Below, piece after piece: positions 2,886-25,645 of a DNA stretch of 34,959 bases (position 1 is the stretch's first letter; each line of letters starts with the position of its first letter). The DNA is from Myxococcus sp. (GTDB taxonomy: Bacteria; Myxococcota; Myxococcia; Myxococcales; Myxococcaceae): assembly GCA_014879945.1 (NCBI GenBank), contig JACSRE010000096.1, positions 1-34,959 on the forward strand. The letters are read 5' to 3'. The translations under genes and the position numbers were made by a program. The notes under the pieces are model-generated. The model was not told where the DNA came from. It did no database searches and saw only the letters and a program-made list of their open reading frames with translations.

Positions 2886-2952
2886 AGTCGAGGACTCCTT
2901 GAAAGTTCTGCGGTCGCGAACGAAGGCGACGGCCCCTTTAGACGGCGCGACT

Positions 2953-3609
2953 CTACGCACACTCCGCGACGAAAAGCACATGGGGGGTGGTGTATCCCCG
3001 AGTGAGCGAAGCACTCTCGACGAGTGAGAAACCTGTCTCCTGGAGTGCTCGCTCCAGCGTCGCGCGGGGCTCGAAGCCGATCGCGCCGCTCTCGTGCGTT
3101 CGGCGCAGCAGCTTCACCATCACCTGCTCCTGCAGCAGCGCCTTCTTCGCGCGCCAGGAGCCGTCGTTCTCGGCCTCTTTGAGCACCAGGCGCCCACCCG
3201 GCACCAGGAGCGCGCGGCAGGCCGAGAGGAACGACGGCCACTGGGCCGGCGGGAGCAGGTACAGCACGTCAGCGACGAAGAGCGTGTCGAAGCTGGCGGG
3301 GCGGCGCTGGGCGAGCGACTCCACCGTGCCGGTCTCGAGCGTGACGTTCGAGAACGCGCCGATGGAGCGCCTGGCCCAGTCGATCTTCCGCGCGTCGGGG
3401 TCGAGCCCGAACACCTGGCGCTCGGGGAAGCCGACGGCCAGGAGCGCCACCAGCACGCCGTGCCCGCAGCCGATGTCGGCCAGCCGCGTGCCCTTCGCCT
3501 TCGACGCCATCACCTCGAGGGGCGCCGAGAACAGGCGGGCGTGCACGAAGAGGCGCTCGGCGACCGGCAGACCCGAGAACGCCGCGAGCGCGGGGTGGAA
3601 GCCGCGCAT
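2953..3609 (-). CDS. Class I SAM-dependent methyltransferase
   Basis: A 218-residue cytoplasmic protein with a seven-beta-strand methyltransferase fold. Motif I (LADIGCGHGVLVAL, around residue 45) binds S-adenosylmethionine, the acidic strand-2 end (VFGLDPDARKIDWAR) contacts the ribose, and a motif-IV-like FDTLFVADVLYLLP and post-motif LVPGGRLVLKE follow. The substrate cannot be inferred. Its ATG shares one base with the fadJ stop codon (TGATG), so it is almost certainly translated from the fad operon transcript by coupled reinitiation. That suggests a substrate linked to lipid or acyl-CoA metabolism, but this is inference from position only. Confidence 0.85.
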   Translation of the reverse strand: MRGFHPALAAFSGLPVAERLFVHARLFSAPLEVMASKAKGTRLADIGCGHGVLVALLAVGFPERQVFGLDPDARKIDWARRSIGAFSNVTLETGTVESLAQRRPASFDTLFVADVLYLLPPAQWPSFLSACRALLVPGGRLVLKEAENDGSWRAKKALLQEQVMVKLLRRTHESGAIGFEPRATLERALQETGFSLVESASLTRGYTTPHVLFVAECA

Positions 3610-7311: not shown

Positions 7312-9586
7312 CTACCTGGGAAACGAGGGCGTGAGCGTCACCACGCCCTTCCCTGCTTCACCGACGAAGAGCGCGCCGTTGGCCTTCGAGTCCCAGACCG
7401 TCTTGTCGCCGTCGCGGCGAATGGCCTTGAACTCGAACGCCCCGCCCAGCGGCAGCTCGACCGTCGCAGGCAGCCGCACGGCCTTCGCCGGGTTCCAGTC
7501 ACCCAGCTCAGGGCCGCTGCCGACCACCAGCGCGCCCGCCGGGCCCTCGAAGGTGATGGCGCGCTTCTTCACCCCGGTGCGCCACTGCGGCTCGGACGAC
7601 GCCTCGAGCGCCGCGAACGCGCCGGGCTTCACCGCGCTGACGAACACGCCCAGCGACGGCCGCTTCCAGCCGCCGGGAGGAACCAGCTCCCTGGTCGCCT
7701 CGCCCCACGGGCCTGCGGTGAAGGTCGGCCGCACGCCGGCTCGGCCCACCGCGACGACCGCGAGCTGCGAGTCGGTGACGCGCCCCAGCACCACGCCATC
7801 ACTCGTCACGCTCAGCACCACCGGCACCCCTTCGGCCAGGGCCGGGTTGGCCTTGCGCGCGCCGAGCCAAAAGGCGATCTCGGCCTTGAGCGGGTGCGGC
7901 GTGAAGGTCATCGACTTGCGGTTGTCGGGCTCCTTCGGGCCCTCCATGCCCACCTCGGTGCCCCAGATGAGCGACGGCACGCCCCGCGCGGTCAGCAGAA
8001 ACGCCAGGGCCGCGCGCACCTTCTCTACGTCGCCGCCGCACACGCTGGCGATGCGCGGCAGGTCGTGGTTGTCGAGCAGCGTCACCAGCTGCGACGGGTC
8101 CGGGTAGCGGCGATCGTTGGTCAGCACCGCGGCCAGCTTCGCCGGCGACTCCTGGCGGCAGAAGACGTCGCCCATCGCGAAGCCCAGGGGGAAGTCGAAC
8201 ATCGAGGTGAAGCCGCCGCCCTTCCACGCCTGGGCCACCAGCGAGGGGTCGCCGTCGAGCAGCTCGCCCAGCATCATGAAGTTCGGGGGCGCCGCCGCCT
8301 TCAGCTCGGCGTTCCACTTCGCCCAGAACGACAGGGGCAGGTGCTTGACGGCGTCGAGGCGGAACCCGTCAGGCCGTGCCTTCTCGAAGCCACCTCCGAG
8401 ACGCGTCGGTGAGGAACTTCGACACCTCGGGGCGCTCGGTCGCGAAGTCGGGCAGCCCGTGCGCGTCGAAGGTCGTCAGCTGCACCGGGTCGTTCCAGTC
8501 GGTGATGCCGCCGTTGTGGTGGAACCAGTCGGGCTTCGCGCTCACCAGCGGCGCGTCGGGCCCCACGTGGTTCAGCACCAGGTCGAGCACCAGCTTCATG
8601 TCGCGGCGGTGCAGCTCGTCCGACAGCTGGCGGAGCGTCGCCTCGTCTCCCAGCCGCGGCTCCACCGTGTCGAGCTCCCACGTCCAGTAGCCGTGGAAGG
8701 AGCCGTAGCCGTGCCACTTGGTGGTGCGCATGCCGTACACGGGCGAGAGCCAGACGGTGTCGACGCCCAGCTCCTGCAGCCAGTCGAGCCTCGAGAGCAG
8801 GCCCTTCAGATCGCCGCCGTGAAAGGCGTGCGGATCTCGAGGGTCGGCGTCGCCGTCGTTCGCGCGATCGCCGTTGGCAAACCGATCGACCATCACGAAG
8901 TAGATCGACCTCGGCGAGGCGCGGCGCCCCGAGGGCTTCGGCTCGTCTTTCGGCTTCGGCTCGTCTTTCGGCTTTGCCTTCTGCGGCACCAGCTGCCCCG
9001 GCGAGAGCTGCTGAAACGAGGCCGGCGCGTTCGGGTCGGCAGCCGCGGGGGCCGCGGAGGGCACCAGGAGGCCGTCGATGAGCCCCCCGAGGCGGCTGGC
9101 GAGGTCGGACGAGGCGGCGTTGATGGCCGCGCGCTGCTTCTCGTGGTCGTACTGGAGGATGACGGGCAGCTCGAAGGCGTCGCGCGCCTCGACGCCGCCG
9201 TTCTTCGAGACCGTCAGCGCCGTGCCGACCTCCCAGCGGTAGCGCCCGTCGAGCTGCGAGAAGAAGTGCACCCGCAGCTCCACCAGCAGCACATAGGGCG
9301 CGTCGGGCTGCCAGGCCTTGAGCGCGGCCTTGCGGGTGTCGGTGATGCGCTGGCCCTTGAGCACCTCGAAGGGCGCCTCGACCACGCCGAGGTTCCGCTC
9401 CTCGAGCGCCCTGGCGACCGCCTCTTTGAGCGCGTCGGGCGCGGTGGTGGCGTCACCGGAGTACGTCGGATCGACGACGTAGCCGACGACGATGGGCGTG
9501 GCGCTCTCGAGGCGCTGGCGGGGCACCTTCGGAATGCACGAGAGCGTGAGCAACAGCACGACGAGCCAGACGACCCGGGCCGACAT
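7312..9586 (-). pseudogene. GH13 alpha-amylase lipoprotein with C-terminal starch-binding domain, interrupted by a frameshift
   Basis: Two overlapping frames together encode one protein of about 757 residues. Frame A starts at ATG 9586 with a lipoprotein signal (LTLSC) and an unrecognised domain of about 180 residues. A KPKDEP-repeat linker and the first half of a GH13 barrel follow, including region I DLVLNHVG (D335 to H340), and it ends at TGA 8369-8371. Frame B carries on at once with region II DGFRLDAVKH (nucleophile Asp, codon 8354-8356), region III MLGELLDG (acid/base Glu, near 8262), region IV LLDNHDLPRI (near 8060) and a CBM20/48-like end (LGDWNPAKAVRL), stopping at 7312. Total length is one base off a multiple of three. 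The shift lies between about 8372 and 8405. It is either a real mutation removing both catalytic residues or a sequencing/assembly error. The start overlaps the porin stop by one base (TGATG), and the gene is the last of the starch cluster. Confidence 0.85.
8934..8969. repeat. 18-bp perfect tandem repeat in the amylase linker
   Basis: The unit ggcttcggctcgtctttc occurs twice in tandem with a few bases of a third copy. On the minus strand it encodes the charged, proline-rich KPKDEP hexapeptide twice, forming a flexible linker between the N-terminal domain and the GH13 domain. The perfect copies suggest a recent duplication or an unstable copy number. Confidence 0.85.
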
Positions 9587-11076
9587 CAGAACCACCCTTC
9601 CGACTCGAGCGAGATGAGGTGATGCCACGCGATCGTCGTCGAGGGGCTGAAGACGTTGAACTGATCGATGCGCTCGGCGAAGGCGTTGCCGAAGGCGGCG
9701 TGCATGGTGCTGTACTGAAAGCCGTAGAGCAGGCGAATCGACGGCCGGGTGTAGATGCCGCGCCCCGTGGGGTTGAGCACCAGGCCGGTCTTCACCTGCA
9801 CGGTGTTGCGCACGTTCTGATCGCCGAACTCGAGGCCGCGGGTGTCGGGCAGGCCCGACGTCGAGCGGAAGATCGAGTCGAAGGAGCCGCGAAAGAGGTT
9901 GCCGTTGAGCGAGCGCTCCTGGGCGAGCGAGCCCTCGAGGAGCACGTGCACCACCCGCGTCAGGTACAGCTGGAAGCGCGCCACGCCCGAGACGTACTGG
10001 CGGTTCATCTCGCTGGCGGCGATGGTGTCGGCGAAGTCGCGGTCGGTGCCGTAGAGGCCGGCCACGGCGAGATCGAGCCGATCGGTGATGAGGTTGAGCT
10101 GCACCTCGTCGCCCAGCTGCAGCACGTAGCGGTCGCGGGTGAGGTCGGCGGTGTAGACGGTGACCGACTGCCCCATCCACGAGTCGGTGTAGAAGTTCTG
10201 CGGGTGCAGGCGTTGGTAGCGCGCGAAGAAGTTGTTCCACCGCACCGGGCCGAAGCCGCCGAAGCCCAGGTAGCCCACCGCGCGCCAGCTCGTGTTCAGG
10301 GCTGACGCCTGCTGGGGCGGCTGGAACTGATCGAACATGCCCGGCCGCTCTTCGAGGTACCGCCGCAGCACCTCGCGCCTGGCGAAGTCTTCGTAGCGGA
10401 CGTTGGGCGTCACGTACGACGAGAAGCGGTTGCCGGCGATGAAGGGCTCGAGGCCCAGCTGCCCGCCGCCGCCGAACTCGAAGTGATCGTTGACGTGCAC
10501 CCGCACCGCGCCGCCCGCGGTGAGGATCGGCACGTACTGGGTGCCGCGGCTGGTGAAGCCCGAGTCGCCCACGGTGAGCAGCACGTCGACGTGCTCGCTC
10601 AGGTACCGCCCCGACAGCCCGATGGTGTCTTCGAAGAGCTGCGCCGGCCGGAAGTCGTAGAGGCCCAGATCGCCGAAGAAGAACTGCTGGGTGCCGAGCT
10701 GCCAGACGATGTTGGGCGCCAGGATGTTGCCGGCGCGCGCGTACAGCTGCGAGAGGCGGAAGTTGCTCAAGAAGCCGTTGAGCGGGTCGGCGGTCGACAC
10801 CGTGCCGCCCTCGATGCGCGCGTGCAGGCTGGCCCAGATGTCGGTGGTGCCGGGGGGCGCCTGCAGCAGGTCGAGCTTCATCTCGAGCGCCGCGTAGGTG
10901 CCCTCGTTCAGCAACCGGCCATAGAGGTTCCAGAAGCCCAGCCGCCCGTTGCCGCCCTGGAAGTCAGGGCGCGCGCTGATGCGGAAATAGCCACCGGCGC
11001 TGACACGGCTGTCGGGCGCCTGCGCGAAGGCCAGGCCAGAGACGACGAGGAGAGCGACGAAGAGTGAGCGAGGCAC
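9586..11076 (-). CDS. Outer-membrane carbohydrate porin, LamB-like
   Basis: A 496-residue protein with a cleavable signal peptide (cleavage near LAFAQA) and a body of alternating polar and aromatic residues typical of outer-membrane beta-strands. It ends in Phe (ESEGWF), the C-terminal signature recognised by the BAM machinery. Internal stretches such as WQLGTQQFFFGDLGLYDFRP and RLLYGFQYSTMHAAFGNAF resemble sugar-specific porins of the maltoporin type. The best-fitting role is diffusion of maltodextrins into the periplasm, since the flanking genes encode starch-degrading lipoproteins and a maltose-type importer is nearby; substrate is inferred from context. The start is GTG at 11076; no ATG is available near the signal peptide and no strong ribosome binding site is visible. 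Its stop overlaps the amylase start. OprB-type or other carbohydrate porins are alternatives. Confidence 0.75.
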   Translation of the reverse strand: MPRSLFVALLVVSGLAFAQAPDSRVSAGGYFRISARPDFQGGNGRLGFWNLYGRLLNEGTYAALEMKLDLLQAPPGTTDIWASLHARIEGGTVSTADPLNGFLSNFRLSQLYARAGNILAPNIVWQLGTQQFFFGDLGLYDFRPAQLFEDTIGLSGRYLSEHVDVLLTVGDSGFTSRGTQYVPILTAGGAVRVHVNDHFEFGGGGQLGLEPFIAGNRFSSYVTPNVRYEDFARREVLRRYLEERPGMFDQFQPPQQASALNTSWRAVGYLGFGGFGPVRWNNFFARYQRLHPQNFYTDSWMGQSVTVYTADLTRDRYVLQLGDEVQLNLITDRLDLAVAGLYGTDRDFADTIAASEMNRQYVSGVARFQLYLTRVVHVLLEGSLAQERSLNGNLFRGSFDSIFRSTSGLPDTRGLEFGDQNVRNTVQVKTGLVLNPTGRGIYTRPSIRLLYGFQYSTMHAAFGNAFAERIDQFNVFSPSTTIAWHHLISLESEGWF

Positions 11077-11617: not shown

Positions 11618-14074
11618 TCACTTCGACTCGAGAATGACGACGCTGCGCGGCTTGAGGGTGTACTGGCCGGAGACCGGCGTGGGCGCGGTGAGCCAGATGT
11701 TGTTCGACTTGCGGGGGGGCAGGCTCATGGTGGAGAGGGTCGCCGCCTCGTCCCAATAGGCCTGGGTGTCGACGACGCGCGTCCACATGCGGCCGCCCGG
11801 CAGGGTGAAGGGCACGTCGAAGGTCTCGCCGTTGATGAGGATGGCGAGCTCGGGGCCCCTGGTCTTGTCGTAGTAGTGGAGCATGAGCTGCTTGGAGCCC
11901 CAGTTGGGCGGCTCGGTGTTGCCCGGGCTCTTCCACGAGAAGGGCGCCGCGGCGCCCTCACCCGGGCCGTACTCGGTGGGCGCGAAGGCGTACGCGTGAT
12001 CCTTGCGGAACTGGATGATGCTCTTGACGAAGTCGAACATGCGGTGCCGGTGGTCCTGGGCCTGGTAGCTGCCCCAGTCCATCCAGTTGGCCTCGTTGTC
12101 GGCGCGTGACGAGTAGGCGTTGTTGTTGCCCAGCTGGGTGCGCTGCCACTCGTCGCCCATGTAGATGAGCGGCGTGCCGTGGCTGATCATCATCGCCACG
12201 TAGAGGTTGCGCATGATCTGCCGCTTCATGCCCTCGTCCTGGCCCCAGTCGCGGGAGCGGTTGTTCGACTCGCCCGACACCTTCTCGCACCACGACGAGT
12301 TGGGCTCGGTGCAGCAGATGGGGTTGAGCGGGCCGCAGCCGTTCTGCTTGTTCGCGTACGAGAGCAGATCGTACATGGTGAAGCCGTCGTGCACGGTGAC
12401 GAAGTTCACCGAGTGGTACGGCTTGCGGTTGTTCCAGCGGTACCAGTCCGACGAGCCGGTGAGGAAGAAGCCGCCGTCCTTCACCTCGGTGGAGTTGAGG
12501 CGGAAGTTGTCGTCGTTCCAGAAGGCGCGCCACCAGTCACGGAAGCGGCCGTTCCACTCGCTCCAGCCGTGCCCGGGCTTGTTCGACGACGCGGGGAAGA
12601 GGCCGATGCGGGTGCCGAAGCCGTTGGCGAGCTCGTTGTTGTTGGGCCCGTTGAAGCTCTTGCCGAGATCGTAGCCGCCGGCCGCCCAGGGCTCCGAGAT
12701 GAGGCGGGTGTTGTACTTCTGGAGCAGCGGGTCGTCGGCGATGTCCTGCAGCACGGTGTTCTTCGGGTCGTCCCACACCCAGTACTCGCCGTCACGCTCG
12801 CCCAGCACCGGGGCGAGATCGAAGCGGAACCCGTCGACGTGCATCTCGTCGACCCAGTAGCGCAGCGAGTCCATGATCAGCCGGCGAAACGGCTTGTGGT
12901 TGGGGCGCGTCTGGTTGCCGACGCCCGAGTTGTTCCAGTACTGCTTGCGGTTGTTCGGATCGAGCCCGTAGTACGCGTTGTTGTCGAAGCCGCGCATGGT
13001 GAAGAGGCCCACCACCTCTTCGGGGTCGAAGTTGGTGAGCGACGCGTTGGTCACCCACGGGTCGGGGTTGAAGTCGAACTCGAGCTTCTGGCGCCAGAAG
13101 CCGCCCTCGCCGGTGTGGTTGTAGACGACGTCGAGGTAGACCTCGATGTCCTGCTTGTGGAGCTCGTCGATCATCCACTTGAACTCGTCGATGATCTCGG
13201 CGCCCTCGCGCTTCCACGAGTAGGTGTTCTCGGCGATGAAGAAGCTCAAGGTGGAGTAGCCCCAGTAGCCGCCGTCGACCGGCTTCTCGAAGGGCGGCAT
13301 GATGTGAATGCCGGTGACGCCGAGCTCCTTCAGGTACGCCGCCTTCTCGCCCAGGCCGCGCCAGGTGCCGGGGTGCTCGACGCCCGAGGCGGGGCTGGCG
13401 GTGAAGCCCTTGGGGTGCAGCTCATACATGATGATGTCGTTCCACCGGTGGCCGGGCGTGGTCGCGATCTGCCGCTTCTCGCGGTAGGCGCGCTCGTTCT
13501 CGCTCCACACGTAGGTGCTCTTGACCACCACCGACTTCGAGGCCGCCGCGTAGGTGGACTCGGTGCGCTTGGGGCCGGTGGCGACGCTGCCCTTGCTCCA
13601 GTCGTGATCGCGGTGGAGCGCCTTGCCGTACGGGTCGAACAGCAGCTTGTTCGGGTTCATGCGGTTGCCGTCGGCGTCGACGTCGGCCTTGAAGCCCTTG
13701 ATGGTGCCGGGCACGAAGTCGGGCTGGTAGGGCCAGTTGGGGCCGAAGGTGATGAAGCCGTAGTGCTGCCCGACGCCGATGCCTTCGACGTACAGGTTCC
13801 ACACGTCGCCGAAGCGCTTCATGGGGAACTGGCGGGTGGCGGTGTTCGACTCGGGGTTGTCGAACAGCAGCAGCTCGATGCGCTCGGCGCGCTCGGAGTA
13901 GACGGCGAAGTTGATGCCCTTGTCGATGAGCGTCGGGCCCATGTGCGAGAGGTTCTCGATGGCCTGGGCGTTGAGCGACGGCGCCTTGTCTTGCGTCTGG
14001 TACAGCCGGGCGCTGGTGCCAGGGGTGCACGAGAGGGCGAGGAACGAGACGAAGAGAAACTGAATGAGGCGCAT
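11618..14074 (-). CDS. Isoamylase-type glycogen/starch debranching enzyme, lipoprotein
   Basis: An 818-residue enzyme expected to hydrolyse alpha-1,6 branch links of amylopectin or glycogen. The signal ends in LALSC (Cys16), so it is probably lipid-anchored outside the cytoplasm, unlike cytoplasmic GlgX. An N-terminal CBM48-like beta-sandwich (about 40-170) precedes the GH13_11 barrel. The barrel has region I LDVVYNHTGEGG (about 316-325), region II GFRFDLAP (nucleophile about D419), region III ISEPWA (E461) and region IV TVHDGF (D563). The C-terminus is a short beta domain (TPVSGQYTLKPRSVVILESK). ISEPWA is typical of isoamylases such as the secreted Pseudomonas enzyme. The catalytic set is complete. 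It is the first gene of the minus-strand starch cluster. No strong promoter was found in the 83-bp gap upstream. Confidence 0.9.
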   Translation of the reverse strand: MRLIQFLFVSFLALSCTPGTSARLYQTQDKAPSLNAQAIENLSHMGPTLIDKGINFAVYSERAERIELLLFDNPESNTATRQFPMKRFGDVWNLYVEGIGVGQHYGFITFGPNWPYQPDFVPGTIKGFKADVDADGNRMNPNKLLFDPYGKALHRDHDWSKGSVATGPKRTESTYAAASKSVVVKSTYVWSENERAYREKRQIATTPGHRWNDIIMYELHPKGFTASPASGVEHPGTWRGLGEKAAYLKELGVTGIHIMPPFEKPVDGGYWGYSTLSFFIAENTYSWKREGAEIIDEFKWMIDELHKQDIEVYLDVVYNHTGEGGFWRQKLEFDFNPDPWVTNASLTNFDPEEVVGLFTMRGFDNNAYYGLDPNNRKQYWNNSGVGNQTRPNHKPFRRLIMDSLRYWVDEMHVDGFRFDLAPVLGERDGEYWVWDDPKNTVLQDIADDPLLQKYNTRLISEPWAAGGYDLGKSFNGPNNNELANGFGTRIGLFPASSNKPGHGWSEWNGRFRDWWRAFWNDDNFRLNSTEVKDGGFFLTGSSDWYRWNNRKPYHSVNFVTVHDGFTMYDLLSYANKQNGCGPLNPICCTEPNSSWCEKVSGESNNRSRDWGQDEGMKRQIMRNLYVAMMISHGTPLIYMGDEWQRTQLGNNNAYSSRADNEANWMDWGSYQAQDHRHRMFDFVKSIIQFRKDHAYAFAPTEYGPGEGAAAPFSWKSPGNTEPPNWGSKQLMLHYYDKTRGPELAILINGETFDVPFTLPGGRMWTRVVDTQAYWDEAATLSTMSLPPRKSNNIWLTAPTPVSGQYTLKPRSVVILESK

Positions 14075-16454: not shown

Positions 16455-17516
16455 GTGTCTGGGCTGCGACTGGTCGGCATCAAGAAGAGCTACGGCGACA
16501 ACCCCGTGGTGAAGGGGGTCGATCTCGAGGTCGCGCCGGGCGAGTTCCTGGTGATGGTGGGCCCCTCGGGCTGCGGCAAGACGACGTTGCTGCGCGTCAT
16601 CGCCGGCCTCGAGCAGGTGGACTCGGGCCAGGTGCTCGTCGACGGCAAAGACATGACCAACGTGCCGCCGCGCGATCGCGACGTGGGCATGGTGTTTCAG
16701 AGCTACGCGCTCTACCCGCACATGACGGTGCGCGAGAACCTGGCCTTCGGGCTCGAGCTGCGGAAGATGCCGCGCGCCGACATCGACGCCCGCGTGGCCG
16801 AGGCCGCCCGCATGCTCGAGCTGGGGCCGCTGCTCGACCGCAAGCCCAAGGCCCTCTCGGGAGGCCAGCGCCAGCGCGTCGCCATGGGCCGGGTGATCGT
16901 TCGCCGCCCGCAGCTGTTCCTCTTCGATGAGCCGCTCTCGAACCTCGACACCGCGCTGCGCGTGCAGATGCGCGGCGAGCTGGCCCGCCTGCACCGGCAG
17001 CTGGGCGTGACGATGATCTACGTCACCCACGATCAGGTCGAAGCGATGACCCTGGCGACGCGGGTGGCCGTCTTCCACAAGGGCGTCTTGCAGCAGCTGG
17101 GGCCGCCGCTCGAGCTGTACCACCGGCCGGCCAACACCTTCGTCGCCACCTTCCTCGGCTCGCCCTCGATGAACCTGCTCGACGCGCGTCGCGACGGCGG
17201 CGCGTTCGTCGGCACCGGCTTCACCCTGCCCTCGGTGGGCGACGCGACCGGAGAGGTGAAGCTGGGCCTGCGTCCTCAAGAGCTGATCGTCGCCACCGAC
17301 GGCCCCTTCTCGGGCGAGGTCGAGGCGGTCGAGCGGCTGGGCTTCGATGGCTACGCCTTTCTGAAGACCGCCTCGGGGCCGCTGACGGCGCGCTTCGACG
17401 GCACGCTCCCGGTGGACGTGGGGCAGCAGGTGAAGGTGAAGGCGCTCAACGACGCGCTGCACGTCTTCTCGACCGACGGCGCGAAGGCGCTCTGGCACCC
17501 CGAGGCCCATCGGTGA
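16455..17516 (+). CDS. malK: Sugar ABC transporter ATP-binding protein, MalK/UgpC type
   Basis: A 353-residue ATPase that powers sugar uptake as a dimer on the cytoplasmic face of the permeases. Walker A is GPSGCGKT (36-43), the Q-loop is MVFQSYALYPHMTVREN, the signature is LSGGQRQR (from 134), Walker B is LFLFDEPLSNLD (near 155) and the switch His is in VTHDQVEAM. A C-terminal TOBE/regulatory region (about 235-353), typical of the MalK/UgpC/MsmK group, is present. The start is GTG at 16455, giving the usual short N-terminus. Its stop overlaps the next gene's GTG by four bases, so the three transporter genes form one coupled operon. Maltodextrin as substrate is inferred from the neighbouring amylolytic genes. 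Confidence 0.88.
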   Translation: MSGLRLVGIKKSYGDNPVVKGVDLEVAPGEFLVMVGPSGCGKTTLLRVIAGLEQVDSGQVLVDGKDMTNVPPRDRDVGMVFQSYALYPHMTVRENLAFGLELRKMPRADIDARVAEAARMLELGPLLDRKPKALSGGQRQRVAMGRVIVRRPQLFLFDEPLSNLDTALRVQMRGELARLHRQLGVTMIYVTHDQVEAMTLATRVAVFHKGVLQQLGPPLELYHRPANTFVATFLGSPSMNLLDARRDGGAFVGTGFTLPSVGDATGEVKLGLRPQELIVATDGPFSGEVEAVERLGFDGYAFLKTASGPLTARFDGTLPVDVGQQVKVKALNDALHVFSTDGAKALWHPEAHR

Positions 17517-19672
17517 AGGCGTGGGCGCTGCTGGTCGCGCTGCTCGCCGTCGAGGCCCTCGCCGACCGGCCCCTCAAGCTCTGGCACGCGTACCGGGGTG
17601 GCGAAGAGCAGGCCATCGAAGCGGCGGTGAAGAAGTTCTCGGCCGAGACCGGCGTGCAGGTCGAGCTGCTCTCGGTGCCCTACGACGCCTTCTCGTCGAA
17701 GCTGACCAGCGCGATCCCCCACGGCGCCGGCCCCGACGTCTTCATCTTCGCGCACGAGCGGCTGCGTCAGTTCCACCGCCTCAAGGTGGTGGCGCCCACC
17801 ACCACGCGCCTGGCGCGCGACCGCTACTTCGCCAGCACCGTCGACGCGCTCGAGGTCGACGGCGAGCTGTACGGGTACCCGCTGTCGCTCAAGACGCTCG
17901 CGCTCTTCATCAACACGGCGCTGGTGACGACCGCGCCGACGACCACCGACGAGCTGCTCCAGCAGCTGGCGACGGTGACCGACCCGGCCAACCACCGCTT
18001 CGGGCTCGCCTACGCCGCCGGAGACTTCTACCTGCACGCGCCCTTCGTCTTCGGCTTCGGCGCGAAGCTCTTCGACGAGGCCGGCCGCGCGACGCTCGAC
18101 ACGCCGGGCATGGCGAGGTCGCTGGCCTTCGTGAAGTCGCTCCAGGACCGCGGCTTCATGCCCAAAGAGGTCTCGGGCGCGCTGGTGAAGTCGCTCTTCA
18201 ACGACGGGCGCGCCGCGATGGTGATCTCGGGCCCCTGGTTCACGGGAGAGATCGACAAGTCGGTGTCGTACCGCATCGCGCCGCTGCCGACGGTGAGCGA
18301 GACGGGGCTGCCGCTGGCGCCGTGGCTCGGGGTCGAGGCGGCGATGGTGTCGGCGCGCTCGTCGAACCCGGAGCAGGCGCACGCGCTGGCGAAGTACCTG
18401 TCGCTCGGCGAGGCCACCTTGCTGCGCGTCGACCCGGGCGGCCAGATCCCCGCAGAGAAGGCCGCCTACGACCGCCCCGAGGTGCAGAAGGACGCGATCA
18501 TCTCGGCCTTCCGGGACGTGGCCGAGCGGGCGATGCCCACCCCCAACACCCTCGAGATGGCGCGCGTGTGGGAGCCGATGAAGCTGGCGCTGCGCGGGGT
18601 GCTCCAGGGCGAGGTGTTGCCCGAGCAGGCGGGCGCGTTGGCCGAGCGCCGCTTCCGCGCGCTCAACCGCGAGCGGCCCGCCGACGCGAACCCGGCGCCC
18701 TACCTGGCGCTGCTGGTCGCCGCGCTCGCCGCCTTCGCCGGGTGGCAGTGGAAGACGCGGGGCCCCGCGCAGGCGTTCGCCAGGCGCTACCCCGAAGCGG
18801 CCCGCGGGCTGACCTACGTCGCGCCAGCGGCGGTCGGCATCGGCGTGCTGATCATCATTCCCTTCGCAGTCGGCATCTCGCTGGCCTTCTTCCACCACGA
18901 CGCCGGCGAGTACTCGTTCGTGGGCCTGGCCAACTTCGTCGACATCGTCACCTCGAAGGGCTACCGCGTCACCGAGCCGCTCTCGTTCTGGTTCACCCTC
19001 GCCGTCACCATCGCGTGGACGTTCGTGAACGTGGCGCTGCACGTCAGCCTGGGCCTGTTCCTCGCCATCTTGCTCAAGGACCCGCTGCTCAAGCTGCGCG
19101 GCGTCTACCGCGTCATCCTCATCGTGCCGTGGGCGGTGCCCAACTACATCACCGCGCTGATGTGGAAGGGCATGTTCCACCAGCAGTTCGGCGCCATCAA
19201 CGGGCTGCTGGCCGCGGTGGGGCTCGAGCCGGTCAGCTGGTTCACCCACTTCTCGACCTCGTTCGCCGCCAACGTCATCACCAACACCTGGCTGGGCTTC
19301 CCCTTCATGATGGTGGTGTCGCTGGGCGCGCTGCAGTCGATCCCCCAGGATCTCTACGAGGCGGCCGAGGTCGACGGCGCCTCGAAGTGGACGCAGTTTC
19401 GCCGCATCACCCTGCCCCTGCTGAAGCCCGCGCTGCTGCCGTCGGTCATCCTCGGCTCGGTGTGGACGTTCAACATGTTCAACATCATCTACCTGGTGTC
19501 GGGCGGGGAGCCGGGCGGCGCGACCGACATTCTGGTGAGCGAGGCCTACCGCTGGGCCTTTCAGCGCAACGAGCAGTACGGGTTCGCGGCCGCGTACTCG
19601 GTGCTCATCTTCTTCGTGCTGCTGGCGTGGACGCGGGTGACGAAGCGGCTCTCGGGCCCGGAGGCGGCGTGA
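17513..19672 (+). CDS. Fused sugar-binding protein and ABC permease (MalE-MalF type)
   Basis: A single 719-residue frame joins two normally separate importer subunits. Residues 1-17 form a signal peptide (cleavage possible after ALA). About 18-390 form an extracellular solute-binding domain of the MalE/UgpB class (LKLWHAYRGGEEQAIEAAVK, GPDVFIFAHERL, DGRAAMVISGPWF). An extra transmembrane segment at about 397-413 would return the chain to the cytoplasm. From 433 on comes a MalF-like permease with six hydrophobic segments and the EAA loop YEAAEVDGASKWTQFRRITL (615 on), which docks the ATPase. The frame is continuous with consistent codon use, so this is a genuine fusion rather than a missed stop. 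The start is GTG in a GTGA overlap with malK, and the stop overlaps the malG start in the same way. Binding protein and translocator are thus produced one to one. Confidence 0.9.
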   Translation: MKAWALLVALLAVEALADRPLKLWHAYRGGEEQAIEAAVKKFSAETGVQVELLSVPYDAFSSKLTSAIPHGAGPDVFIFAHERLRQFHRLKVVAPTTTRLARDRYFASTVDALEVDGELYGYPLSLKTLALFINTALVTTAPTTTDELLQQLATVTDPANHRFGLAYAAGDFYLHAPFVFGFGAKLFDEAGRATLDTPGMARSLAFVKSLQDRGFMPKEVSGALVKSLFNDGRAAMVISGPWFTGEIDKSVSYRIAPLPTVSETGLPLAPWLGVEAAMVSARSSNPEQAHALAKYLSLGEATLLRVDPGGQIPAEKAAYDRPEVQKDAIISAFRDVAERAMPTPNTLEMARVWEPMKLALRGVLQGEVLPEQAGALAERRFRALNRERPADANPAPYLALLVAALAAFAGWQWKTRGPAQAFARRYPEAARGLTYVAPAAVGIGVLIIIPFAVGISLAFFHHDAGEYSFVGLANFVDIVTSKGYRVTEPLSFWFTLAVTIAWTFVNVALHVSLGLFLAILLKDPLLKLRGVYRVILIVPWAVPNYITALMWKGMFHQQFGAINGLLAAVGLEPVSWFTHFSTSFAANVITNTWLGFPFMMVVSLGALQSIPQDLYEAAEVDGASKWTQFRRITLPLLKPALLPSVILGSVWTFNMFNIIYLVSGGEPGGATDILVSEAYRWAFQRNEQYGFAAAYSVLIFFVLLAWTRVTKRLSGPEAA

Positions 19673-20514
19673 AGCGCTCGGGCCTGACGGTGGCGCTGAT
19701 CCACATGGGCCTGGTGCTGGCCTGCGCGGCGTCGCTCTACCCGGTGCTGTGGGTCGCCAAGCTGGCGCTCTCGCCGACCCAGTCGCTGTCGCTGTCGATC
19801 AACCCGCTGCCCGAGGCGATCACCCTCGAGCACTTCCGCGACGTGCTCTCGTCAACCGACTCGCAGGGGCGCTGGCTGTTCGGCCGGCAGCTCTTCGCCT
19901 CGGTCTTCGTCTCGGGCCTCACCACGCTGGTGGGCCTGTCGCTGGCGGTGACGGCCGCCTACGCGCTCTCGCGCTTCCGCTTCCCCGGCAAAGACGCCGG
20001 CATGCAGACCCTGCTGGTGACGCAGATGTTCCCCGCGACGCTGATGCTGGTGCCGCTCTACGGGCTGCTCCAGGCGCTGGGCCTGCTCGACTCGTGGGGC
20101 GGCCTGGTGCTCGTCTATTCGACCTCGTCGCTCCCCTTCTGCGTGTGGATGCTCAAGGGCTACTTCGACACCATTCCCCGGGAGCTCGAAGAGGCCGCCG
20201 TGATGGACGGCGCGTCGCCCTGGCAGGTGTTCTGGAAGGTGGTGCTGCCGCTGGCCCGCCCCGCGCTCGCGGTGACCGCGCTCTTCAGCTTCATGACGGC
20301 GTGGAACGAGTTCATCCTCGCCGCGACGCTCATCAACGACGCCGCGCGCTTCACCCTGCCGGTCGCGCTCCAGCAGTACGTGGGTGAGTGGAAGACCGAG
20401 TGGGGCCACTTCGCCGCCGGGGCGCTGCTGGTGTCGGCGCCGGTGATGGCCCTGTTCTTCGCGCTCCAGAAGTTCCTCGTGGGCGGGCTCACCGCGGGGG
20501 CCGTGAAGGGTTAG
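19669..20514 (+). CDS. malG: Sugar ABC transporter permease, MalG type
   Basis: A 281-residue inner-membrane permease with six predicted transmembrane segments. The EAA loop LEEAAVMDGASPWQVFWKVV (near 175) contacts the ATPase. Other family marks are AYALSRFRFPGKD before segment 3, MFPATLMLVPLYGLL, and the C-terminal LVGGLTAGAVKG, close to the classic end of MalG-type proteins. It completes the importer with the ATPase and the fused binding-protein/permease. The GTG start overlaps the previous stop (GTGA). No intrinsic terminator is evident after the stop codon, so transcription may continue into the lipoprotein gene 40 bp downstream. Confidence 0.9.
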   Translation: MKRSGLTVALIHMGLVLACAASLYPVLWVAKLALSPTQSLSLSINPLPEAITLEHFRDVLSSTDSQGRWLFGRQLFASVFVSGLTTLVGLSLAVTAAYALSRFRFPGKDAGMQTLLVTQMFPATLMLVPLYGLLQALGLLDSWGGLVLVYSTSSLPFCVWMLKGYFDTIPRELEEAAVMDGASPWQVFWKVVLPLARPALAVTALFSFMTAWNEFILAATLINDAARFTLPVALQQYVGEWKTEWGHFAAGALLVSAPVMALFFALQKFLVGGLTAGAVKG

Positions 20515-20554
20515 GCGTGCACGTTTCGGCGGGGTGCTGCATCTTCCCGCCGAC

Positions 20555-21307
20555 ATGATCCGACTCCTCCTGCCCTGTCTGTTCCTCGTTGGTTGCGCCA
20601 CCGCGAAGTCCGCCGCCTACGAGAACCTGCGCGCCCTCGAGAAGCAGCAGAACTACGCCGAGATGGTGGGCCGCCTCAAAGACGTGCAGCCCGTGGAGCG
20701 CGACGAAGAGTGGGAGGGCTTCGTCGAGCGCGCCAGCCTCAAGGAGCTGAGCGTCGAGCTGAAGGACGCCCGGGCCGCGGAGCACCTGCTCGCCACCATC
20801 GACGCGCAGCTCGAGAGCTACCCCTCGCTCAAGAAGTCGGCGGCCTGGTGGCAGAAGCGCGCCGACGTCGGCGTCACCGCCTTCAAGTGGACGTACTCGA
20901 ACTACCGCCACGCCACGAGCGACGAGCAGTGGGTGCCGAAGATCGTCGCCTTCGTCGAGAAGGACACCACGACGAAGGGCCTCGCCCAGCGCTTCGCCAG
21001 AGACGTGGTGGCGGCGCGGCTGGTGGCCTCGAGCGCCTGGCCCCTCTACGCCCTGGCCTTCCAGCGCGACGGCGACGCGGTCTGCGCCGACCCGAAGCTG
21101 GTGGACGTGGTGATCGAGCTCATCGACTACAAGAGCTGGCTCGACGAGGTGAAGCCGCTGGTGACGACCCGCTGCGCGGCCCAGCTGAAGAAGCCCGTCG
21201 CCGAGAAGCTCAAGAAGAACGACAGCACCTCGTTCCGGGTCGCCGCGTGCCAGGTGCTCGCCGGGCAGGCCGACGTGAGCGACGCGCTGAAGATCTGCGC
21301 CGACTGA
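20555..21307 (+). CDS. Hypothetical lipoprotein
   Basis: A 250-residue protein starting MIRLLLPCLFLVGCATA, with a clear lipobox (LVGC). The mature part is mostly helical, rich in Lys/Glu/Ala and contains two Cys near the C-terminus. Helix pairs such as NLRALEKQQNYAEMVGRLKD suggest tetratricopeptide-like or HEAT-like packing, but no motif is strong enough to name. ATG 20555 is preferred over an upstream ATG at 20534 because only the later start places the hydrophobic signal at the N-terminus. No function can be assigned; position downstream of the sugar importer may be incidental. Confidence 0.75.
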   Translation: MIRLLLPCLFLVGCATAKSAAYENLRALEKQQNYAEMVGRLKDVQPVERDEEWEGFVERASLKELSVELKDARAAEHLLATIDAQLESYPSLKKSAAWWQKRADVGVTAFKWTYSNYRHATSDEQWVPKIVAFVEKDTTTKGLAQRFARDVVAARLVASSAWPLYALAFQRDGDAVCADPKLVDVVIELIDYKSWLDEVKPLVTTRCAAQLKKPVAEKLKKNDSTSFRVAACQVLAGQADVSDALKICAD

Positions 21308-21352: not shown

Positions 21353-22432
21353 ATGTTCCGCGCGCTGGGCCTCGCTCCGCTCTCCATCACCCCGCTGGCC
21401 GCGCTCGACCCGAAGGGGCTGCGCGTGTTCCGGGCCGAGCACGGGTGGCTGCTCGAGACCGACGGCGCCCAGGTGAGCGTGCGGCGGCGGCTGGGCAGCG
21501 AGGTGCTGGTGCCCGCCCAGAGCCGGTACCAGCTCGAAGACGGCGACGTGCTGTGGAGCCCCGTGGGCGGCGCCCACCTCGAGGCCGCGCCGACGCATCG
21601 CGAGCTGGAGCTCGAGCGGCGCGCGGTCGATGAGTGGGAGCGCTCGGCGCACTGGGCGGTGCTGGCCGACCGGCTGCTCGATCACGGCGATCCCCTGGGC
21701 GGGCAGCTCACCGCGCAGCTGGGCCACCGCGCCGCGACGCCGCTCTCGCCGCACACCTGGGTCGGCACGCACTGGCGCCACGGGGTGCTCCGGCGCGTCT
21801 CGATCACCCGGCCCGAGTGGGCGCACGCCGTCGCGTGGCGGGAGGCGCTGCTCGAGGTGCTGGTCTCGCGCGAGGCCCGCTTCCTCGAGGAGCTCTCGCT
21901 CGATCTCCCGCGGCTCGAGCCCGACGCGTCGGCCGCCGAGCTGACGGCGCTCTCGAACGACCTCCTCACGCTGCCCTTCCCGCGGTGGCTGACGCGCCTC
22001 CACTTCGGCGTGATGCCCGAGCCGCCCCCGCTGGTGACGCCCCAGGCGCTGCACGAGCGCACCCCGCGGCTGGCCCGCGCCCCCCTGTTCCGCCGCACCG
22101 AGCGCGCGCGGTTGGTGGTGGAGCAGACGTCTGACGCCATCGCCCTCGAGGGCTTCGACGGTGATGGGCTGGAGCTGGCCGAGGGGCTGCGGGTGCGCGT
22201 CTTCCCCCGCAAGGTGCGCTTCGAGCGGCCGGTCTGGCCGCGCTACGACTCGTGGCCCTCGTGGGACTTCGCCTTCCACGACGGGCGCTGGTTCCTCACG
22301 TGGCGCCACGGCGCGCCGCGCAGCGACGAGCTCAAGATCAACGGCATGGAGTTCTTCAACGCCGCGCTGGTGCCGGGCGATCGCCTCGAGCTGATGGAGC
22401 ACCTGGTGCTGCGCTTCGAGCCGCGCGACTGA
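21353..22432 (+). CDS. Protein with TIGR02996-like segment and FHA-like ends
   Basis: A 359-residue cytoplasmic protein without signal or membrane segments. Around residues 92-128 the stretch ERSAHWAVLADRLLDHGDPL resembles the TIGR02996 domain found in myxobacteria and planctomycetes (consensus like WLVYADWLEERGDPRGE). The last 60 residues (DELKINGMEFFNAALVPGDR, then LELMEHLVLRFEPRD) have the NG...L.pGD.l..g...LRF pattern of the end of a forkhead-associated domain. The first 75 residues (VSVRRRLGSEVLVPAQ, then QLEDGDVLW) look similar in style. If FHA-like, it may read phosphothreonine signals, but the canonical Arg/Ser/His/Asn set is not obvious. The gene lies 45 bp after the lipoprotein gene. 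Confidence 0.65.
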   Translation: MFRALGLAPLSITPLAALDPKGLRVFRAEHGWLLETDGAQVSVRRRLGSEVLVPAQSRYQLEDGDVLWSPVGGAHLEAAPTHRELELERRAVDEWERSAHWAVLADRLLDHGDPLGGQLTAQLGHRAATPLSPHTWVGTHWRHGVLRRVSITRPEWAHAVAWREALLEVLVSREARFLEELSLDLPRLEPDASAAELTALSNDLLTLPFPRWLTRLHFGVMPEPPPLVTPQALHERTPRLARAPLFRRTERARLVVEQTSDAIALEGFDGDGLELAEGLRVRVFPRKVRFERPVWPRYDSWPSWDFAFHDGRWFLTWRHGAPRSDELKINGMEFFNAALVPGDRLELMEHLVLRFEPRD

Positions 22433-22474: not shown

Positions 22475-25400
22475 ATGCGCCTTCGCCTCGCCGTGCTCGG
22501 AGTGCTGCCCCTCGCCTTCGCCTGCCCTGGCCCGACGAACCGGCCTGACGCCGGCGCCGCCATTCCGCCGACGGTGATGTCGGTCTCGCCGACGAGCGGC
22601 CCGATGACAGGCGGCACCACCGTCACCATCAACGGCTCGCGCTTCGTCGACGGCGCCACCGTGACGTTCGGCGACGCGCCCGGGGTGCAGGTGGTGGTGC
22701 AGAACGCGCTGCGGCTCACCGTGCGCACCCCCGCCGTCACCAACGCAGGCCGCGTGGCCGTCACCGTCACCAACCCCGACGGCGCCAGCGGCGCGCTGCC
22801 CGACGCCTTCACCTTCGAGGCGCCCGCGGGGCGCACCATCACCGAGGCGATCGTCACCCTGCCCGCCGACACCACCGATCGCACCGGCGCCGCCATGGTG
22901 CAGGTGGGCGTGAACGCGCAGGTCGAGGTGCCGATGGTGACGAAGGGCGCAGGCCAGGGCACGGGCGTTCGGGGCCAGGTGGGCTTCGCGCGCACGCTCT
23001 CCACGCCGCCCTCCGACGCCGACTTCACGTGGACCGACGCCACGTACTCGGCCGACGCCGACGGCGCGATGGCCGGCGACACGGCGCGCGACGTCTACGG
23101 CGCGACGGTGACGGTACCTGGCGCGACGACGACCGGCGTGACGTACCGCCTGGCCGCCCGCTTCTCGACCGACAACGGCGCGACCTGGCGGCTCGCCGAT
23201 CGCGACGGCCTCGCCAACGGCGTTCAGGAGGCGCAGCTCGCCCGCCTCGCCGTCGAGCCCAGGGGCGTCGACTGGTGTCGCATGGGTGGCCGCACGCCCG
23301 CGATGGCGCCGCCCGTCGTCACCCTGCGCGGCACCCAGACGGGCCCCACCATCTTCGCGCAGGTCTTCTCGATGGGCCGCACCGAGCCGATGGGCGCGGG
23401 CGCCGGCGTGAAGGGCCAGCTCGGCTACGGCGCGATGGGCACCAGCCCCTCGACGTGGACGTGGGTCGACGGCGCCTACAACGTGGACGTGGGCAACAAC
23501 GACGAGTGGCAGGCGACGCTGCCCAACCCCGGAGAAGGCACCTACCGCTTCGCCTGGCGCTTCAACCTCGACGACGGCGCCTTCACCTACTGCGTCAACG
23601 ACGGCCCCTCGCCCACCCCGTTCAACGAGGCGCAGTCTGGCACGCTGACGGTCTCGACCCCGGGCGTCGACAGCTGCGTGCTCCAGTTCCCCAACGCGGC
23701 GCAGGCGCTCGTCGGAGAGGCCGGGCCGATCGCGTACGGCCGGGTCTTCGCCGGCGGCATCACCGATCGGCTCGACGGCGGGGCGCCCGCGATGATCACC
23801 ATGGAGCTCGGCACCGGCCCCGGCGGCGTCATGCCCGATCAGGCCTCGTGGAGCTGGGGGCCGGCCACCTTCAACGTCGAGGTGATGGGCGGCGGCGCCG
23901 AGTTCCAGGCGCGCCTGCCCGCCTCGCCGCTGGGCACCTACGCCTTCGCCTTTCGCGCGCGCCTGGCCTCGGGGGCGTACACCTACTGCGATCTCGACGG
24001 CAGCCAGAACGGGTTCCAGAACAACCAGACCGGCGTCTTCCGGGTGGCGCCCTTCAGCTTCGACGAGTGCCGCCTGCAGTTCCCCGCGGCGCTGACGACC
24101 TACCAGGGCCGCCCCAGCGAGCTGGTGTTCGGCCAGGTGTTCGCGCCGGGCGTGACGTCGGTCGCGGCCGACGCAGGAGCGCCCGCCGGCCTCGAGGCGG
24201 AGCTGGGCTTCGGGCCCGATGGCGGCGACCCGTCGGCGCCTGACGCCGGCTGGTCGTGGACGGCGGCGACCTTCAACGTGCCGGTGATGGGCGGCGGGGC
24301 CGAGTACCAGAGCCGCCTCACCGGGCCGGCGCCGGGCGCCTACAGCTACGCGTACCGCGTGCGCTACCAGAGCGGCGCGTGGACGTACTGCGATCGTGAT
24401 GGCGCCTCGAACGGCTACCAGGCCGCCCAGGCCGGCGGGCTCACCGCGCGGGCCTTCGACGTCGACGAGTGCTTCGTGGACACCACCGCCCTCACCTCGG
24501 CGCCCTCGATGCCGCTGGCGACGCCGTACCTGGCGCGGGTGCGGGTGCCGACGTTGACCGAGGCGATGGGCCAGGGCGCAGGGGTGACGGCCGAGATCGG
24601 CTACGGCCCCATCGGCTCGCTGCCCTCGACGTGGACCTCGTGGACCGCCGCGGCCTTCGACGCCGACGCGATGGCCTTCGATCGCTACGCCGGGAGCTTC
24701 ACGGCGCCGGGCGCGCTGGCGACCTACGACGTGGCCTTCCGCTTCCGCGTGGGCGCGCGGCCCTTCGTGTACTGCGATCGCGACGGGCAGCAGAACGGCT
24801 ACTCCAGCGCGATGGCGGCGCAGCTGACGGTCTCGAACTCGGTGGCCATCTCGGCCTGCCAGCTGCTCACCCCCAGCGCCTTCATGCTCGCCAGCGGCAG
24901 CCCCTTGAGCGTGAGCGTGAACGTCGCGGGCACCGGCACGGCGGCTCCAGGCGCGGCGCCCGGGCTGCGGGCGCAGATCGGCATGGGCGCGCAGGACGAC
25001 GCGTCGACGAGCCCGCTGTGGGGCTGGGCCAACGCGACCTACCTCAACGACGTGAGCGGCCGAGACGTCTACGGGCTCACCTTCCAGCCGTCGTACACGG
25101 GCCTGCGCGCGGTCTCGGCGCGGGTGTCGGCCGACGACGGCATGACGTGGACGTACTGCGACCTCAACGGCTCGGATCAGAACGGCTACGAGGTGTCGCA
25201 GCAGTACAACGTGACGGTGGAGCGCCACACCTCGATTCAGTTCTGCAAGCTGCAGTTCCCGTACACCGTGTCGCTCGACGCGGGCACCTCGCGGGTCTAC
25301 GGGCAGGTGTTCCAGAGCGGGCTGACGCCCGACGCCGGCGCGCCCGTCCGCGCCCAATTCGGCATCGGCGCGCGCAACAACGAGCCCGCGCTGGCCTGGC

Positions 25401-25645
25401 AGTGGAGCCCCGCGCCCTTCCTGGGCTTCGGCCTTCCGCCCGACCAGAACAACAACGAGTACGCGGTGGACTACCGGCCCGACGCGGGCAACCCGAACTA
25501 CGCCTTCCGGTTCAGCCTCGATGACGGGGGCACCTGGTGCTACGCCGACAACGACGGCAACGGCGCCAACGGCCTGGGCAACGCGTGGGACGGCTTCCGC
25601 GGAGACCTCACCGGCACCCCCAACCTCGGTGTCGTCACCCCGTAG
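22475..25645 (+). CDS. IPT/TIG-domain lipoprotein with seven cysteine-paired repeats
   Basis: A 1056-residue predicted surface lipoprotein (signal ends LAFAC, Cys17). An IPT/TIG immunoglobulin-like domain occupies about residues 30-115 (VMSVSPTSGPMTGGTTVTIN, then GSRFVDGATVTFGD). It is followed by seven repeats of about 130 residues. The repeat-opening cysteines of repeats 2-7 are C268, C401, C532, C666, C795 and C924. Each repeat then has an A.LGYG segment, a W.W..A.YN strand and a closing G.YTYCD.DG.QNGY motif. Repeat 1 (from about 122) lacks both the opening Cys and the closing Cys (TWRLADRDG), which suggests the two normally form a disulfide. In repeat 7 the closing Cys is moved by one (TWCYADNDG). 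The repeat unit is not one I can name; acidic DxDG elements hint at calcium binding. The codon pattern matches its neighbours. A role in surface display or adhesion is inference. Confidence 0.85.
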   Translation: MRLRLAVLGVLPLAFACPGPTNRPDAGAAIPPTVMSVSPTSGPMTGGTTVTINGSRFVDGATVTFGDAPGVQVVVQNALRLTVRTPAVTNAGRVAVTVTNPDGASGALPDAFTFEAPAGRTITEAIVTLPADTTDRTGAAMVQVGVNAQVEVPMVTKGAGQGTGVRGQVGFARTLSTPPSDADFTWTDATYSADADGAMAGDTARDVYGATVTVPGATTTGVTYRLAARFSTDNGATWRLADRDGLANGVQEAQLARLAVEPRGVDWCRMGGRTPAMAPPVVTLRGTQTGPTIFAQVFSMGRTEPMGAGAGVKGQLGYGAMGTSPSTWTWVDGAYNVDVGNNDEWQATLPNPGEGTYRFAWRFNLDDGAFTYCVNDGPSPTPFNEAQSGTLTVSTPGVDSCVLQFPNAAQALVGEAGPIAYGRVFAGGITDRLDGGAPAMITMELGTGPGGVMPDQASWSWGPATFNVEVMGGGAEFQARLPASPLGTYAFAFRARLASGAYTYCDLDGSQNGFQNNQTGVFRVAPFSFDECRLQFPAALTTYQGRPSELVFGQVFAPGVTSVAADAGAPAGLEAELGFGPDGGDPSAPDAGWSWTAATFNVPVMGGGAEYQSRLTGPAPGAYSYAYRVRYQSGAWTYCDRDGASNGYQAAQAGGLTARAFDVDECFVDTTALTSAPSMPLATPYLARVRVPTLTEAMGQGAGVTAEIGYGPIGSLPSTWTSWTAAAFDADAMAFDRYAGSFTAPGALATYDVAFRFRVGARPFVYCDRDGQQNGYSSAMAAQLTVSNSVAISACQLLTPSAFMLASGSPLSVSVNVAGTGTAAPGAAPGLRAQIGMGAQDDASTSPLWGWANATYLNDVSGRDVYGLTFQPSYTGLRAVSARVSADDGMTWTYCDLNGSDQNGYEVSQQYNVTVERHTSIQFCKLQFPYTVSLDAGTSRVYGQVFQSGLTPDAGAPVRAQFGIGARNNEPALAWQWSPAPFLGFGLPPDQNNNEYAVDYRPDAGNPNYAFRFSLDDGGTWCYADNDGNGANGLGNAWDGFRGDLTGTPNLGVVTP

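Follow-up and report, generated by a model that had tools for sequence, protein, structure and literature searches.

The repeat gene and its surroundings

The window, a stretch of 34,959 nucleotides of Myxococcus sp. (contig JACSRE010000096.1), contains an ORF on the forward strand, 22475-25645, which encodes a protein of 1056 amino acids (Table 1). From its sequence, the product is predicted to be an outer-membrane lipoprotein. Most orthologues having an intact N-terminus likewise carry a Cys after a signal peptide. The residue at +2 of the lipobox Cys is P, not Lys; Lys at this position was reported to mark inner-membrane lipoproteins of M. xanthus (PMC3222651). After the TIG domain, seven repeats of about 130 amino acids each extend nearly to the C-terminus. 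All seven repeats can be aligned (163 columns), and profile matches are found across the phylum with E-values down to 1e-50; thus, the pattern is far beyond chance.

The gene lies in a maltodextrin uptake locus, which the earlier reading of this DNA, made from the sequence only, had missed and which is the best clue to function. The MalE-MalF type fusion is a single ORF of 719 amino acids, and relatives keep the fusion with 50-75% identity over nearly the full length. The small predicted lipoprotein between MalG and the repeat gene is found in near genera, and so is the gene just upstream of the repeat gene, with 70-76% identity. The alpha-amylase gene shows a frame change near 8385 (frames -3 to -1) and is intact in relatives such as L055, so that the frameshift is either a sequencing error or a broken gene. 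At 333-3014 on the reverse strand, a predicted Cys-rich lipoprotein carries a DxSxS motif, which may indicate a VWA-like domain, as well as bacterial TSP3 repeats of the calcium type. Promoter and terminator scans found nothing.

Table 1. Features of the repeat lipoprotein gene and of the maltodextrin locus in the window
Feature	Coordinates	Strand	Evidence
Alpha-amylase with CBM20 tail	7312 to about 9622-9784	-	Pfam Alpha-amylase, CBM_20
LamB-like outer-membrane porin	9586..11076	-	Pfam LamB E 6.6e-4, below curated cut-off
CBM48 + GH13 debranching-type enzyme	11618..14074	-	Alpha-amylase E 3e-21, CBM_48 E 7.8e-11
MalK-like ABC ATPase	16455..17516	+	Pfam ABC_tran E 8.7e-36; TOBE_2; OB_MalK E 1.2e-5, just below cut-off
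MalE-MalF type fusion (solute-binding domain + permease)	17513..19672	+	SBP_bac_1 E 7.6e-30, BPD_transp_1 E 6.4e-21
MalG-like permease	19651..20514	+	Pfam BPD_transp_1 E 7.5e-23
Small predicted lipoprotein between MalG and repeat gene	20534..21307	+	No Pfam match; kept in L073, L080, L081
Gene without Pfam match, ending 43 bases upstream of repeat gene	21353..22432	+	
Signal peptide and lipobox Cys (aa 1-17, LAFA-C)	22475..22525	+	Sequence
IPT/TIG domain (aa 32-114)	22568..22816	+	Pfam PF01833 E 1.6e-13; NCBIfam NF058597 E 7e-12
Repeat 1, without both cysteines	22832..23260	+	Alignment of seven repeats; profile match
Repeat 2, predicted disulfide C268-C373	23261..23659	+	Sequence, alignment, coupling, tree
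Repeat 3, predicted disulfide C401-C505	23660..24052	+	Sequence, alignment, coupling, tree; AF2 model of repeats 3-4
Repeat 4, predicted disulfide C532-C639	24053..24454	+	Sequence, alignment, coupling, tree; single-domain AF2 model
Repeat 5, predicted disulfide C666-C767	24455..24838	+	Sequence, alignment, coupling, tree
Repeat 6, predicted disulfide C795-C895	24839..25225	+	Sequence, alignment, coupling, tree
Repeat 7, terminal form (CY for YC), predicted disulfide C924-C1022	25226..25621	+	Sequence, alignment

Conservation of the locus

The tandem form of the repeat belongs to a conserved myxobacterial starch or maltodextrin uptake locus. The repeat gene and MalG are on the same contig, less than 7 kb apart, in at least 38 genomes of four families, f1 (the window's own), f7 (G155), f8 (G157) and f10 (G163), counts that are inflated by kinship inside f1. 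In family f11, the repeat gene adjoins an amylase gene and, in G006, the porin gene, and MalG is found elsewhere. Linkage to mal or amylase genes is thus seen in five families, and gene order varies; the repeat gene is located upstream of MalG in L055 and downstream elsewhere. Among 195 genomes, the porin is present in 60 of the 71 that have at least three repeat matches versus 8 of the 124 others; shared ancestry inflates this association, but the pattern still spans several families. G057, G058 and G192 carry their tandem repeats on other contigs than the mal genes, and the tandem proteins of L045, L050, L079 and L091 do not adjoin mal genes.

The protein behind MalG in G163 has TIG and a single repeat. 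In L116 (12209-14677, family f10), the protein behind MalG has TIG and one repeat lacking Cys, followed at the C-terminus by a different domain without a Pfam assignment. This C-terminal domain was suspected to bind carbohydrate, but Pfam finds only TIG in the protein.

A predicted disulfide within each repeat

The cysteines are at positions 17 (lipobox), 268, 373, 401, 505, 532, 639, 666, 767, 795, 895, 924 and 1022. Outside C17, there are exactly twelve, one pair per repeat in repeats 2-7, with one Cys near the start and one near the end of the repeat at a spacing of 98-107 residues. The closing motifs of repeats 2-6 are TYCV, TYCD, TYCD, VYCD and TYCD, and that of repeat 7 is WCYAD. Repeat 1 has EAIV and WRLADRDG at the matching places and no Cys at either. 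The sequence-only reading had described six repeats with the pair and a first repeat lacking both, and the positions of all cysteines confirm this exactly. The CY form occurs in 21 of 217 domains and in the final repeat of many orthologues. It shifts the Cys by two residues, so the Cys stays on the same face of the beta-strand. CY instead of YC is a terminal-repeat signature of the tandem orthologues that is kept across genera.

It had also been proposed that the paired loss reflects a disulfide inside the repeat, and several results support this. Of 305 distinct domains in which both positions are readable, 274 have both cysteines, 30 have neither and one has a single Cys. The first set comprised 217 domains, 174 with both cysteines and 28 with neither; a few apparent single-Cys cases were checked by hand, of which two were alignment trims and one was real (L044). 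On a FastTree phylogeny computed with the Cys columns masked, the first Cys was lost 7 times and the second 8 times, and all seven losses of the first Cys fell on branches that also lost the second, when 0.1 coincidences were expected. Mean-field DCA (448 domains, effective depth 212) placed the Cys pair at rank 1 among all column pairs at least 5 apart. Furthermore, single-copy domains keep both cysteines (e.g., L033, L034, L042 and L049), indicating that the bond is within one domain. Disulfides across repeat borders, from the end of one repeat to the start of the next, were considered and rejected, because they would leave C268 and C1022 unpaired and are contradicted by the single-copy domains as well. 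In summary, each repeat except the first is very probably held by one internal disulfide, as judged from cysteine parity, co-occurrence, the tree and coupling. Some relatives (L043 and L046) have a second, optional Cys pair at alignment columns 32 and 39; these cysteines, seven columns apart, also occur together, with coupling rank 9.

Fold and structural neighbours of the repeat

The sequence-only reading had suggested that the fold of one repeat be predicted. AlphaFold2, given an alignment of the locus relatives, modelled repeat 4 alone as an all-beta domain with a pLDDT of 96.2 and a pTM of 0.89; the model of repeats 3-4 was also all-beta (pLDDT 95.8). The model can be confidently assigned to the Ig-like / E-set beta-sandwiches, with matches to Fn3, PD-1, GlgE-N and SorT Ig-like domains in support. 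The first Cys is in the first strand. The second is in a short strand between the long RF..DGG hairpin and the DxDGxxNGY loop, directly ahead of the latter. In this loop, which the sequence-only reading had described as possibly of calcium-binding type, D107 is conserved in 97%, D109 in 67% (N in 21%) and G110 in 83% of domains, and mean-field DCA found a D109-Q119 coupling within it, which suggests that the loop is a compact turn. The closing hairpin looks like an Asp-box and has weak matches to Pfam BNR.

A structure search with two repeats returned generic Ig and Fn3 chains with large rmsd and was superseded by the single-domain search. The best 18 matches of the single-repeat model are all N-terminal domains of alpha-glucan-active enzymes, with Z 8.6 to 9.8, and come from three GlgE enzymes, TVA I and a cycloalternan-forming enzyme, five different proteins in all. 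GlgE 5lgw gave Z 9.8 (101 aligned, rmsd 2.8, 18% identity), TVA I with maltohexaose 1uh2 gave Z 9.6 (109 aligned, rmsd 3.8, 9% identity) and the cycloalternan-forming enzyme 5i0d gave Z 9.3. PD-1 (Z 8.5) and sulfite dehydrogenase domains (Z 8.2) came next, a modest margin of about 1. Domain N of TVA I is reported to act as a starch-binding domain (reference 34 of PMC9781549). The models are thus suggestive of structural kinship with starch-binding N-domains, although membership is not established.

Spread of the domain and library searches

Of 195 Myxococcota genomes, 118 contain the domain according to a search with a profile built from the seven repeats, which the sequence-only reading had also suggested. 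Proteins with tandem copies have 3-9 of them and are mostly lipoproteins that bear a TIG domain. Where the domain stands alone, it is usually C-terminal in large secreted proteins with lamin-tail, Big_5, EGF, TIG and other domains; elsewhere it is ahead of an endonuclease/exonuclease/phosphatase domain. Nearly all named records that contain the domain are from Myxococcota or former Deltaproteobacteria, and the viral contigs and plasmids searched contained no relatives. A record titled Comamonas sp. KCTC 72670 (L083) has a Myxococcus-type mal locus with the repeat protein, which suggests that the record is mislabelled or contaminated. The source genome has just one further copy of the domain (L002); it lies ahead of an endonuclease/exonuclease/phosphatase domain, and the gene directly before it encodes PLD-like and CBM20 starch-binding domains.

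None of 73 members reached a cut-off in Pfam or NCBIfam, and membership in families of these libraries was rejected since all matches were sub-threshold. Choice-of-anchor J (NF038128) matched 3 of the 73 members with a best E of 0.0032, and scored 12.1 bits for the whole protein against a cut-off of 30 bits. A PDB sequence search with profiles gave no convincing relatives, and a literature search found no paper on this lipoprotein. It had been suggested that this may be an undescribed surface domain; it is new to the libraries searched, whereas its fold, an Ig-like sandwich, is common. A domain found in over half of the examined Myxococcota genomes is nameless in these libraries.

A proposed role in alpha-glucan capture

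We lean, somewhat beyond an even chance, towards the view that the protein is an alpha-glucan-holding surface lipoprotein of the maltodextrin uptake locus. The model is built on computed domain boundaries, fold class, coupled cysteines and conserved locus linkage. A lipid anchor and a TIG domain would carry a rod of seven Ig-like sandwiches on the cell surface, six of them each closed by a disulfide from the first strand to the strand of the closing WTYCD motif. We infer the outward orientation from the absence of Lys at +2, an absence that speaks for the outer membrane but does not give the side. The repeats would act as weak starch-binding modules and keep alpha-glucan within reach of the porin and of the secreted amylase, in a division of labour with the amylase. 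Maltodextrins would then enter the periplasm and be taken up by the ABC transporter. Against a starch role, the repeat belongs by sequence to no known carbohydrate-binding family. Against starch specificity, the domain is also part of lamin-tail, EGF, TIG and nuclease proteins that are encoded away from starch loci.

The main rival is a pure spacer. Tandem Ig-like sandwiches often serve as spacers. The repeats could be a passive scaffold, that is, a disulfide-locked stiff stalk which binds no sugar and positions the amylase, the porin or another partner. Ig-like spacers were proposed in glycan loci of Bacteroidota (PMC11216935), and both the range of copy number from 3 to 9 and the single C-terminal copies in unrelated secreted proteins are consistent with such a stalk. 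However, the protein of the starch locus consists almost entirely of repeats and bears no further functional domain, residues D107, R95 and W62 stay conserved, and the nearest folds are N-domains of alpha-glucan enzymes. We regard a pure spacer as unlikely, at roughly one chance in four. An unrelated job such as adhesion or predation, with mal adjacency only through shared inheritance in one lineage, is more doubtful still. The TIG and Ig-like tandem architecture is common in adhesins and the tandem proteins of L045, L050, L079 and L091 lie away from mal genes, but the linkage to mal or amylase genes holds in five families with differing gene orders, and tandem proteins track the porin across genomes. 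A periplasmic lipoprotein passing maltodextrins from the porin to the MalE-F transporter is very improbable even though the ABC transporter genes are the nearest operon neighbours, because a rod of 1000 amino acids is long for this role, MalE is already fused to MalF, and the +2 residue is not Lys, which speaks for the outer membrane without giving the side.

Going further, the repeat may represent a new starch-binding module family that current libraries lack, in a Myxococcota Sus-like surface starch-capture system where a porin and a MalEFGK-type ABC transporter take the place of a TonB-dependent SusCD pair. We put this forward tentatively, at a little less than even odds. Since the tandem form is tied to the maltodextrin locus, an anonymous lipoprotein becomes a testable candidate for starch capture.

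Comparison with known domains and systems

GlgE domain N (PF11896) is the top structural match of the repeat. In profile-profile comparison, it shares only the NDEYxAxLxxPxxGxYxYA motif (23 columns, P 8e-4, probability 24% in hhalign), and one of 73 members matches PF11896, with E 0.0073, short of the curated cut-off. With 179 positions in Pfam, the N/S region of GlgE exceeds the repeat in length, and it is part of a glycogen-building enzyme, not of a secreted repeat protein. N-domains of the CBM34 type, as in TVA I and maltogenic amylases, are Ig-like sandwiches of similar size. Unlike them, the repeat is in tandem, predicted to be disulfide-bonded and unattached to a glycoside hydrolase. The CBM34 profile (PF02903) had no match with E up to 1 in 73 members, and CBM34 is nearly absent from Myxococcota (1 of 146 genomes). 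The dimerisation domain of Mo-co oxidoreductases (PF03404) is also Ig-like, and that of SorT (4pw3) aligned with the repeat at Z 8.2 (101 aligned, 18% identity); its Pfam match to the repeat protein is weak, with E 0.016 under the curated cut-off, and there is no molybdenum-enzyme context.

The closest known counterparts in layout are SusE and SusF of Bacteroides, surface lipoproteins whose tandem beta-sandwich modules keep starch in the vicinity of an amylase and of an importer in the outer membrane (PMC8288039, PMC11216935). The repeat protein shares with them a lipoprotein signal, repeated beta-sandwich modules and a gene position alongside an amylase and an alpha-glucan importer. It differs in that the importer is a LamB-like porin with a MalEFGK-type ABC system, and all the repeats, of which a protein has up to nine, belong to a single homogeneous family with a predicted disulfide in each. 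Neither SusE/SusF nor their CBM domains gave a Pfam or PDB sequence match of note, and SusE/SusF were absent among the structural matches listed. In its proposed role, the repeat lipoprotein would be an analogue, and probably not a homologue, of SusE and SusF. Myxococcota are known mainly for predation. If its members also capture starch in this way, the phylum would have a separate answer to the problem that Bacteroidota solve by SusE and SusF.
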